Assembly (NCBI RefSeq): GCF_000970285.1
Contig: NZ_CP009516.1
Location: forward strand, 3,141,036-3,205,035
From: Methanosarcina horonobensis HB-1 = JCM 15518
GTDB lineage: Archaea; Halobacteriota; Methanosarcinia; Methanosarcinales; Methanosarcinaceae
Direction of reading: 5' to 3'
DNA: 64,000 nt
Shown here: positions 9,550 to 63,020 of the stretch, piece after piece
Layout: each line of letters opens with the position of its first letter
Position numbering within the stretch: position 1 is the first letter of the stretch
Position numbers and translations under genes: made by a program
Notes under the pieces: generated by a model
What the model saw: only the letters and a program-made list of their open reading frames with translations
Databases searched by the model: none
Told to the model about the DNA's origin: nothing

Positions 9550-9740
9550 ATTCGATTCTAAGCCTCCCAATACTGCGTGCAGCGGACAGGTGCGGGAATT
9601 CGCCCACCCTTTTCGGGATTCTACCCAAAGGTGGATTCGAAGTCTGGTGATTTTTCTTATCAGATCCGCCCTTGCAGGCAACGCCAGCAGTTGGACGGCA
9701 GCTCCGCCTGCCCAGCCGATTTGCGAGCAAAATCCACTAA
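9550..9740. other. GC-rich island of unknown nature
   Basis: About 190 bp with conspicuously higher GC than the surrounding AT-rich DNA, so frames stay open on both strands by composition. It contains short inverted pieces around GGCAGCTCCGCCTGCC, but no protein family or RNA recognised. It may be a dispersed repeat or structured RNA. Confidence 0.35.
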
Positions 9741-9822
9741 AATAAGGATTGGAACCGTTTATCAAAATACTTAACACTATAGATGTATCTTTTCTAATTG
9801 ATTATTCTGAGAATGAACCTCT

Positions 9823-58880: not shown

Positions 58881-58897
58881 AAGTTTACGTTGTAAAA

Positions 58898-58938
58898 TTC
58901 AAACATTATGTTTAAACATTTCAAACATGATGTTTGAA
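58898..58938. promoter_or_regulatory. Two 19-bp palindromes, left pair
   Basis: TTCAAACATTATGTTTAAA (58898-58916, one mismatch) and TTCAAACATGATGTTTGAA (58920-58938, perfect about its centre) lie 22 bp apart, about two helical turns, so bound proteins would sit on one face. Confidence 0.8.
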
Positions 58939-59152
58939 TTTTTGATGAAAAAAGGTGAAAATTGTGATACCATTTATATAGTGACTGAATGAGGGAAAGA
59001 TAATTTCCTCAAAATGAAAAAGTGATACAAGGAAAGTTGTGTTACTTGGGCAAAAATCCAAAATTTTCTCTTATTTTTTATCTCTCTTATTTTATATTAT
59101 CTTCATAACTTGTAAATGAAATTTGTAAAATGAATCCTATCTGTTACAAAAG

Positions 59153-59190
59153 TTCAAACATCATGTTTGAAACGTTTGAAAATGTTTGAA
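59153..59190. promoter_or_regulatory. 19-bp palindrome plus half-sites, right group
   Basis: TTCAAACATCATGTTTGAA (59153-59171) followed by half-sites ACGTTTGAA (59172-59180) and ATGTTTGAA (59182-59190), spaced at about 9-10 bp. Same motif as the left pair, 215 bp away. Confidence 0.8.
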
Positions 59191-59332
59191 ATTATATTTT
59201 CGCAACCAGTAATCTCTTTTTTGTAGATAATCCATGAGATTTCAGAATAAAGTAGTTAGTTACTAACAAAAAAGAACCTGAAGTAGCAAGCAGGAATCGA
59301 TAATTCAAGAAAGTTGTCTATTTCGGTGTCTT

Positions 59333-59896: not shown

Positions 59897-59992
59897 ACAA
59901 TTTTAGTTATTTTTACGACATAAAAAAGTATAAGTAAAATCAGTTATACTAAAGTAAATTAAATTATACGTAATTTGATGGAGGAGATTACT

Positions 59993-60511
59993 ATGGGCAT
60001 AGATGAAAATGAAAAAATAAAAGCGTATGCGAACGAATTGCCTGCTGAACTTAGGCGAGCAATCGATGCGTTGAATAGTGATATTGGTTTGGCCGTTTTT
60101 TTTGTACTATTCAAATATGGCGAAATGTCGTTTTCACAAATAATGAGCGAATTAGATATCCCATCAAATTACAGTAGCAAATTAACATACCACATCAAAA
60201 AACTGCAAAAAGGTTCATTGGTTAAAAATGAATATATTAAAAAGGAAAACGTAGATAGTTATTCCTTTTACGATATCACAGAGTTTGGAGAAGGAATTAT
60301 CAATAATTTGATGAACGCAATTCAGGTACCACAGTCGAGTAATTATCTCATACAAACGTTAGATGAAAACTCCACCACCAGTCCAATGACAAGAATTATG
60401 TTAAATTTGGACAGCAATGATAGTAAATTTAATGTAGACTGTGCAGCTGCCTCTGATAGTGTCATTAAAGTTTTGTTAAACCAATCTGAAGCTACTATGA
60501 TGGCAAATTAA
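59993..60511 (+). CDS. ArsR-like winged-helix regulator
   Basis: 172 residues from ATG 59993, which has GGAGGAG upstream; earlier in-frame starts at 59975 and 59978 sit on that SD. Winged helix about 30-110 (FSQIMSELDIPSNYSSKLTY as the HTH, IKKENVDSYSFYDITEFGEG as the wing). C-terminal part is polar with no obvious ligand site. Divergent from the TIR-like gene, which it may control. Confidence 0.7.
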   Translation: MGIDENEKIKAYANELPAELRRAIDALNSDIGLAVFFVLFKYGEMSFSQIMSELDIPSNYSSKLTYHIKKLQKGSLVKNEYIKKENVDSYSFYDITEFGEGIINNLMNAIQVPQSSNYLIQTLDENSTTSPMTRIMLNLDSNDSKFNVDCAAASDSVIKVLLNQSEATMMAN

Positions 60512-60661
60512 TATCACTAGTACTGCGATTCCGAAGTATGTTCACAAAAATTGACGGTTGAATCTATCCCACGATCACGAATTTCTCAACAAATAGGGAA
60601 TTTATTTTGGAATCGAAGCACTAGGAAATTAATAATAATTCTAGGTTGTTGAGGTGAAATC

Positions 60662-61058: not shown

Positions 61059-61196
61059 AAATACTCGGCTCTGTACAAAACCTATTTTAATCAGCATTAA
61101 GGGGCCACAATTAACTGTGGGAAATAGAGATCACAAGATCAGTGCAGAATAACGAATATTTATTATTTCATAGGCATTCTACAGAGCCAAATACTC
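61059..61196. mobile_element. 122-bp MITE with target-site duplications
   Basis: Element 61067-61188 begins GGCTCTGTACAAAACC and ends with the inverted copy: perfect 9-bp TIR GGCTCTGTA, 13 of 16 over the extended ends. It is flanked on both sides by the 8-bp direct repeat AAATACTC (61059-61066 and 61189-61196), a clean target-site duplication. It has no ORF, so a related transposase elsewhere must have moved it. Confidence 0.85.
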
Positions 61197-61450: not shown

Positions 61451-61470
61451 TGTTACCAAATGTGGTAACA
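61451..61470. promoter_or_regulatory. Palindrome TGTTACCA-AATG-TGGTAACA
   Basis: Perfect 8-bp arms around a 4-base spacer; operator-like. It lies 40 bp from the tandem array. Confidence 0.6.
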
Positions 61471-61508
61471 GATAGATCATTTATCACATAAAATGAAGGG
61501 TTATCATT

Positions 61509-61579
61509 TTGTATTCAAATCTAGGATTGTATTCAAACCTGGGATTGTATTCAAGTCTGGATTGTATTCAAATCTGGGA
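61509..61579. repeat. 18-bp tandem repeats, four copies
   Basis: TTGTATTCAAATCTGGGA with small variations: 61509-61526, 61527-61544, 61545-61561 (17 bp), 61562-61579. Direct, contiguous and iteron-like, just upstream of a TATA tract. Confidence 0.9.
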
Positions 61580-61800
61580 TGAAAAACAAATATAAGTAAC
61601 TACAGCATTTATACTACCTGCATTACCAAAAAATTGAGCAATAAAAGGGAACATACAAAGAAAGCTTTTATGTTCTTATAAATCAAGAGTATACGGATCA
61701 TAAAGGCACTAGAACCTGAAAACGAAAAAATTTAAAGTTCCCATTAAATACTATATGCTAGGTTAGGTGAACCAGTGAAGTAATAAAGTTAGAAAGCTTG

Positions 61801-61835
61801 TAAGTTGTTGGGATCGTGACTCCCTACAACTTACA
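61801..61835 (+). ncRNA. Strong hairpin, possible structured RNA or origin stem
   Basis: GTAAGTTGTTGGGA and TCCCTACAACTTAC pair over 13 of 14 positions with a 7-base loop (TCGTGAC). There is no ORF nearby on either side for 200 bp. It could be a leader RNA, a terminator, or the single-strand hairpin of a rolling-circle origin. Confidence 0.45.
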
Positions 61836-62038
61836 GACTTATGTTTAAGGAAAGTATTTCAAAACATTGCAATAATATACCATTTCTAATTGTATCGTAC
61901 ATGTACTTGTACTTTGCGATTGTATATAACTCTGAAAATTGCAATCTACTGAAATCTTTCCTTTTTTTTGTACAGAGTAATAAAACTTTGCATGAAGTAA
62001 AAAGAACTCATGTCAAATAAATAACAGGAGGACATATT

Positions 62039-62182
62039 ATGTCAACTGTATTCCACGCAGGATTCATGACATATCTGTTGATTGCAATCATCTTCTTCTT
62101 AGCTCTCTGCTTTGTTGCTCCCGATATTGCTGACCAGGTATTAATTGATCTGCACAATCTAGCCTCAGCGGTAAAGGTATGA
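62039..62182 (+). CDS. 47-residue one-helix membrane protein
   Basis: ATG 62039 behind CAGGAGGA; TGA at 62182. MTYLLIAIIFFLALCFVAPD is a membrane helix, followed by a short amphipathic tail. It could be a minor virion or membrane peptide. Confidence 0.6.
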   Translation: MSTVFHAGFMTYLLIAIIFFLALCFVAPDIADQVLIDLHNLASAVKV

Positions 62183-62387: not shown

Positions 62388-63020
62388 GTGTATACTTACT
62401 TTGGTGATTTTTTGGTAAAATACCCTAAATCAGGTTATGAAAAAGATTCTGAAGCTTTACATTTCTATGTGAAAGATGTAAGAATCCTTACTCCTAAAGA
62501 ATATGAAGCATTAAAAGCCACTATTCCAAAAGATCAGCATAAAACAACTTTAGATATTCTTCTAATTACAGGTATGCGCTACGCAGAGCTTTTGAGGCTC
62601 TATGATAATCCTGCCTGGTACAATGAGAAAAGAAATATAATTCATCTCCCGGAAGAGGCACAAAAGAAACACAAAAGAAGACAGTTAGAAAGAACTATTC
62701 ATCCTTTACCTTCCATGTTCAATTATCTTCTAAAGGACTTCTGGCAGGCCCGTAAACCTCCCTTAGAAAGTACCTGGAATAAGAACCTTCAAAGATGGGC
62801 TATGTCTGCAGGCATAAACCCTTATGGTCTTTCTGTAAAGTCAAGTAGAAAAACACTGGAGTCCTGGTTAATTGCTTCAGGGGTTGTTGAGTCTACCGTA
62901 TGTTTACGGCAGGGTCATGATTCCTTAACCTCTATGCGTCATTATCAGGGGCTTGCCTTTTCAGATGATGAATTAAGAGACATAAAAAAGCAGCTAATCG
63001 CATGGGGTTTCTCGATATAA
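62388..63020 (+). CDS. Short tyrosine recombinase
   Basis: 210 residues from GTG 62388 (no SD). Catalytic-domain motifs TGMRYAELLRLYD (about 64-76), SSRKTLESWLIASG (about 159-172), RQGHDSLTSMRHYQGLAF (about 179-196) with His and the nucleophile Tyr. The usual H-x-x-R is S-x-R here, so one catalytic His is replaced. Truncated N-terminal domain. It resembles integrases of small archaeal viruses. It differs from the recombinase at 55665, so a second element is likely. Confidence 0.8.
   Translation: MYTYFGDFLVKYPKSGYEKDSEALHFYVKDVRILTPKEYEALKATIPKDQHKTTLDILLITGMRYAELLRLYDNPAWYNEKRNIIHLPEEAQKKHKRRQLERTIHPLPSMFNYLLKDFWQARKPPLESTWNKNLQRWAMSAGINPYGLSVKSSRKTLESWLIASGVVESTVCLRQGHDSLTSMRHYQGLAFSDDELRDIKKQLIAWGFSI

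Follow-up and report, generated by a model that had tools for sequence, protein, structure and literature searches.

The closest described counterpart of the region considered here is the promoter of the ribonucleotide reductase (RNR) operon nrdH-nrdD-nrdG of Methanosarcina (MM_RS07095-07085 in M. mazei). Like that region, it carries a dyad (TTGTTAnCAnATnTGnTAACAA), TTGTATNCAA repeats and, 19 bp beyond the last of these, a GAAAAACnATTATAAGTA core, followed by a GCATTT start region and a long leader. In M. mazei, nrdD, nrdG and nrdH fall into one expression cluster with genes of viral replication and are increasingly expressed in the course of MetSV infection (PMC9694453), which suggests that the RNR operon there responds to DNA-replication demand. 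Three other systems share part of this organization. Bacterial NrdR regulation also places several operator boxes at an RNR promoter, iteron plasmid origins contain, within A+T-rich DNA, direct repeats of about 18 bp in tandem, and the damage-induced E. coli tisB-istR locus has a stress-type operator and a long structured 5' UTR ahead of a monocistronic gene for a small, one-helix hydrophobic peptide.

The region lies in a 64-kb window, by which we mean the whole stretch of DNA analysed and whose numbering is used throughout; the window belongs to a single 5.0-Mb Methanosarcina chromosome (G000:C1:3141036-3205035). A first-pass annotation had noted four direct repeats, an operator-like palindrome and a 14-bp hairpin in non-coding DNA at 61451-61835 and had proposed a plasmid or viral origin or, alternatively, that the hairpin is a small RNA. 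The interval is indeed non-coding in that no ORF of at least 40 aa overlaps it. From the sequence comparisons below, we consider that it probably (at a probability of roughly 0.8) comprises the control sequences and 5' leader of a transcription unit with one gene, in which nrdH-type operators precede the coding sequence of a predicted 47-aa membrane peptide (Table 1). An apparent origin would in this way turn into a gene control region.

Table 1. Features of the candidate peptide unit, in window coordinates.
Feature	Position	Strand	Basis
Palindromic operator (putative) TTGTTACCAAATGTGGTAACAG, equivalent to nrdH-type dyad TTGTTAnCAnATnTGnTAACAA	61450-61471	.	1 mismatch to dyad
Four tandem operator repeats (putative) TTGTATTCAAAtCTGGGA	61509-61580	+	repeat starts 61509, 61527, 61545, 61562
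Predicted core promoter TGAAAAACAAATATAAGTAA with TATA box ATATAAGTA	61580-61599	+	promoter alignment
Inferred transcription start region GCATTTATA (compare GCATTTAGA of nrdH leaders)	61605-61620	+	TATA spacing and alignments
Predicted long structured 5' leader RNA, ~420 nt	61617-62038	+	fold
Leader hairpin GTAAGTTGTTGGGA-TCGTGAC-TCCCTACAACTTAC	~61800-61834 (within 61795-61840)	+	fold, conservation
Second leader domain, closed by AAGGAAAG.ATTTC / GAAATCTTTCCTT	61844-61968	+	conserved in G005 and G022
Shine-Dalgarno-like AGGAG	62026-62030	+	sequence; conserved
Gene of 47-aa one-helix membrane peptide MSTVFHAGFMTYLLIAIIFFLALCFVAPDIADQVLIDLHNLASAVKV	62039-62182	+	homologues, codon-position differences
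Terminator-like hairpin AAAGGTAT-GATAA-ATACCTTT with T run, overlapping the stop codon	62173-62193	+	conserved

A blastn comparison of the intergenic region with the genus returned weak matches of the repeats and TATA block to DNA preceding a glutaredoxin (nrdH-like) gene in other species. Both operator motifs described in the first-pass annotation proved real and above chance. The palindrome, at up to 1 mismatch to the genus consensus, has its sole match within the 64-kb window at this site (0.00 expected), and the TTGTATTCAAAtCTGGGA pattern at up to 2 mismatches has four matches in the window (0.04 expected; 0 shuffles gave four), which form an array with spacings of 18, 18 and 17 bp (TRF score 116). 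Across the 5.0-Mb host chromosome, the palindrome (up to 2 mismatches) and the repeat joined to its GAAAAA/TATA motif (up to 3 mismatches) each occur at exactly two places, and these are the same two. The second is the promoter of nrdH-nrdD-nrdG (G000:C1:4952554-4952633), and the genes behind it encode glutaredoxin (nrdH), NrdD (PF13597, E = 2.1e-159) and a radical-SAM activase, that is, the anaerobic ribonucleotide reductase operon. A reversed-pattern control for the dyad also gave 4 matches at up to 2 mismatches in the host genome, so the dyad alone is weak at this threshold and the case rests on the combination of motifs.

The nrdH-type dyad was found upstream of nrdH in 29 of 30 Methanosarcina genomes, the lone exception being 73% complete, and nrdH promoters carry one to three TTGTATNCAA sites (up to 1 mismatch; background about 0.2 per kb) ahead of the core GAAAAACCATTATAAGTA. 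The last TTGTATNCAA site normally starts 19 bp before this core, and the last of the four repeats in the window likewise starts 19 bp before the GAAAAA-TATA block GAAAAACAAATATAAGTAA; the last repeat and core stand at -480/-461 in the window and at -377/-358 before the host's own nrdH. Alignment of the promoter block with that of the host's nrdH scored 44 (shuffle mean 17.8, maximum 30), and the 68-bp block gave a mean score of 39.5 against 29 nrdH upstream regions (shuffle mean 17.8, maximum 21.9). The exact composite pattern of dyad and first repeat is present in 12 of the 111 genomes of the family, every one of them in the genus Methanosarcina. The two arrangements differ in that the dyad lies farther upstream in the window, at 59 bp from the first repeat compared with 32-33 bp in most nrdH promoters, so that this spacing, 27 bp longer, does not agree. 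They also differ in the repeats, of which the window has four at 17-18 bp and nrdHDG promoters have one to three, usually spaced by 22-23 bp or, in two promoters, by 33 bp, in the leader RNA past its first 20 nt, and in the product, which is a predicted membrane peptide in the window unit and RNR in nrdHDG.

Homologues of the peptide were identified in 4 other genomes among the 111 searched, plus one weak and doubtful match. Genomes G005 and G022 have kept the complete unit, from its promoter elements through the leader and ORF to a terminator-like hairpin, rich in A+T, that overlaps the stop codon. Their dyads are degenerate, being 1 bp shorter, and their arrays consist of one proximal copy plus a distant one. 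Given that single proximal copy, the four-copy array of the window looks like a local tandem amplification of one promoter-proximal site. Short tandem arrays of about 16-18 bp also occur in unrelated intergenic DNA of two genomes, as three copies of ATTGTATTCAATTGG (L031:450-500 in G027) and six copies of GATTGATTTAAGTCTG (L032:4380-4520 in G021), which suggests that such arrays arise in the genus through local amplification. In both genomes the unit has other neighbours than in the window, with an IS-type transposase near it in G005. No Rep or tyrosine recombinase was found among the ORFs in 14 kb around the G005 unit or in 6 kb for G022, where the stretch runs only about 0.4 kb past the peptide before the contig ends; these data suggest that the unit is independent of the replicons that adjoin it in the window. 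A further genome (G017, L075:5001-8046) encodes a homologous 46-aa peptide that has no nrdH-type promoter. Its gene heads a Lamassu-like cluster, in which it is followed after 39 bp by the gene of a 194-aa membrane protein and then by those of an LmuB-like ATPase (PADLOC E = 2.3e-19) and of a 154-aa protein. Such a context may hint at a membrane or defence-linked role for the peptide.

The match to the RNR promoter and the related units both bear on the origin proposal, in which a Rep would bind the repeats of an iteron-type plasmid or viral origin and the hairpin would serve as nick or single-strand initiation site of the surrounding integrated elements. Tandem repeats at helical-turn-like spacing, a dyad and a hairpin in A+T-rich DNA would suit such an origin, as would the integrase that adjoins at 62388-63020, but the repeats and palindrome match the RNR promoter of the genus, and the repeats keep a fixed distance to the TATA box, as part of a promoter common to nrdH that iteron origins do not have. 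Searching beyond the window did recover a Rep, an HUH protein in a neighbouring element (L003:2418-3773, REP_ORF2-G2P E = 1.4e-8) that also speaks for an origin, but it is the nearest one and lies 13 kb downstream, with no Rep within 10 kb, rather than adjacent as expected for an iteron origin. Around the units of G005 and G022 the DNA that was read encodes neither a Rep nor a recombinase. The DNA of the unit, its array included, has no match in phage and plasmid collections, and its genomic relatives have one proximal copy beside nrdH-like motifs, so that copy number is not conserved. We therefore regard the origin claim as not supported and an origin at this site as very unlikely.

The HUH protein, a rolling-circle Rep, maps to about 75.3 kb in window numbering within an integrated element that also encodes coat-like small membrane proteins, a 700-aa repeat-domain protein, a tyrosine integrase and a serine resolvase. 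This element is possibly inovirus-like, and inovirus-like elements have been reported for Methanosarcinaceae (PMC6813254). At 58890-59195, past the last gene of the left element, we also observed copies of a dyad repeat (TTCAAACATnATGTTTGAA), some direct and some inverted; a stretch 85% similar to 59004-59225 is present in G021:C3. These dyad repeats are a better candidate for an element replication or partition site than the 61.5-kb region.

Returning to the peptide unit, the predicted leader is more stable than expected for its composition (stretch 61612-62060: z = -4.7; 0 of 100 shuffles equally stable). The 14-bp hairpin in it was confirmed, with 13 of 14 positions paired at -21 kcal/mol, and it is kept in all three leaders (z = -4.6 in the window, then -4.1 and -3.5), in which two of its pairs show changes on both sides. 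The closing stem of the second domain likewise shows a two-sided change from G-C to A-U. Over the whole leader, 10 of 75 predicted pairs are changed on both sides among the three sequences, for which the RNAalifold covariation term is slightly unfavourable (+0.46). Conservation, two-sided changes, a position downstream of the TATA block and a place in the leader of a small-protein gene together support the idea that the hairpin acts as RNA. Of the small-RNA alternative in the first-pass annotation it is thus the RNA role that finds support, in the form of a leader structure. No Rfam family matched the leader, whether at gathering score across the window or up to E = 1 in this region. An ORF within the leader (61841-62020) was discarded, as single-base indels among the three genomes break its frame.

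The same hairpin, with its 14-bp arms and 7-nt spacer, could be taken for a core site recombined by the tyrosine recombinase whose gene lies 550 bp away at 62388; the core sites of such enzymes have arms and spacers of similar length. A site of this kind seems most improbable here, since the hairpin is single-copy in the genome with no second att copy, and a comparison of 58-64 kb with the sequence up to 87 kb showed no direct repeats of at least 16 bp save two A+T-rich 16-mers. Further, in both G005 and G022 the hairpin persists, its spacer is a different one, and the surrounding DNA that was read encodes no integrase. The recombination-site reading was dropped on the grounds of the single copy and the missing att repeats.

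The leader before nrdH is itself conserved genus-wide, at about 330 nt (L041:1600-1930 and equivalents in 28 other genomes), and holds a GGGTTrGCTnAGGAAtGGTAnCCC module; the leaders scanned had no Rfam match. In a single-sequence fold the host's own nrdH leader was not clearly more stable than shuffles (z = -1.1), so we do not claim a riboswitch common to both leaders.

Several observations indicate that the peptide gene belongs to the unit. Differences from the G005 ORF fall 10, 2 and 21 at the first, second and third codon positions, which argues for coding constraint, and the product has one hydrophobic segment (maximum 19-residue KD 2.73). The terminator-like hairpin is kept in all three units (z = -3.0, -5.8 and -4.3); a consensus terminator scan missed it because its stem is A+T-rich, and consensus scans for sigma-70 promoters and terminators are in any case uninformative for an archaeon. 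No relatives of the peptide were found in viral contigs. Coding constraint and a terminator positioned past the ORF also weigh against a transcript of 61.6-62.0 kb that is mainly a stand-alone regulatory RNA, with the peptide secondary or acting as a type I toxin whose structured mRNA is inactive until processed. Structured leaders are a feature of type I toxin mRNAs such as tisB, and the strong structure, small hydrophobic peptide and stress-type promoter would be in keeping with such a system, but the Rfam scan identified no antisense antitoxin gene, the peptide is not strongly cationic, and the unit differs from tisB-istR in its archaeal host, in having no LexA and in that no antisense or trans-acting antitoxin was found by the same scan. 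We therefore consider a stand-alone RNA or toxin improbable.

For the peptide unit we infer regulation by the same protein, a start site, co-regulation with RNR and roles for leader and peptide as follows. The protein or proteins that control nrdH-nrdD-nrdG in Methanosarcina would bind immediately before the TATA box, at the palindrome and the TTGTATTCAA repeats. Transcription would start near 61615 and end at about 62195. The resulting monocistronic mRNA would comprise a leader of some 420 nt, folded into the hairpin and another long domain, the coding sequence of the 47-aa membrane peptide and, at the stop codon, the terminator. The leader may control stability or translation, and the cell would produce the peptide when it also produces ribonucleotide reductase, namely at dNTP demand or replication stress, if the response of the M. 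mazei operon can be extended to it. A search for NrdR (TIGR00244) was negative in all 30 Methanosarcina genomes and positive in 9 of 14 control genomes, so the operator-binding regulator is apparently not NrdR; moreover, the NrdR system uses a pair of NrdR boxes, whereas the window and nrdH promoters combine two unlike motifs in genomes in which no nrdR gene was found.

The operator set common to the window locus and the nrdH promoter has only two sites in the host genome, and these could serve as two DNA baits in a direct search for the regulator. This bears on RNR control in archaea without NrdR and on an orphan membrane peptide under what looks like DNA-precursor control. More speculatively, and with little confidence, we suggest that the unit might be an archaeal counterpart of an SOS-controlled membrane peptide. 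In this view a small membrane protein that moves horizontally, and whose mRNA has a long self-folding leader, would have captured the NrdR-independent RNR operators of the host and would be made at dNTP shortage or virus replication as a dormancy or abortive-infection factor at the membrane.

Finally, other elements were identified elsewhere in the window. Two MITE-like dispersed repeats lie at 60515-60630 (terminal inverted repeats CTAGTACTGCGATTCC...GGAATCGAAGCACTAG; more than 100 matches across the genus) and 61062-61193 (GGCTCTGTACAAAACCTAT...ATAGGCATTCTACAGAGCC). One match to the CRISPR repeat family CRISPR-DR7 was found at 9719-9755 without a surrounding repeat array, and a winged-helix protein encoded at 59975-60511 has a DNA-binding part that weakly matches the Csa3 model (PADLOC E = 3.8e-6).
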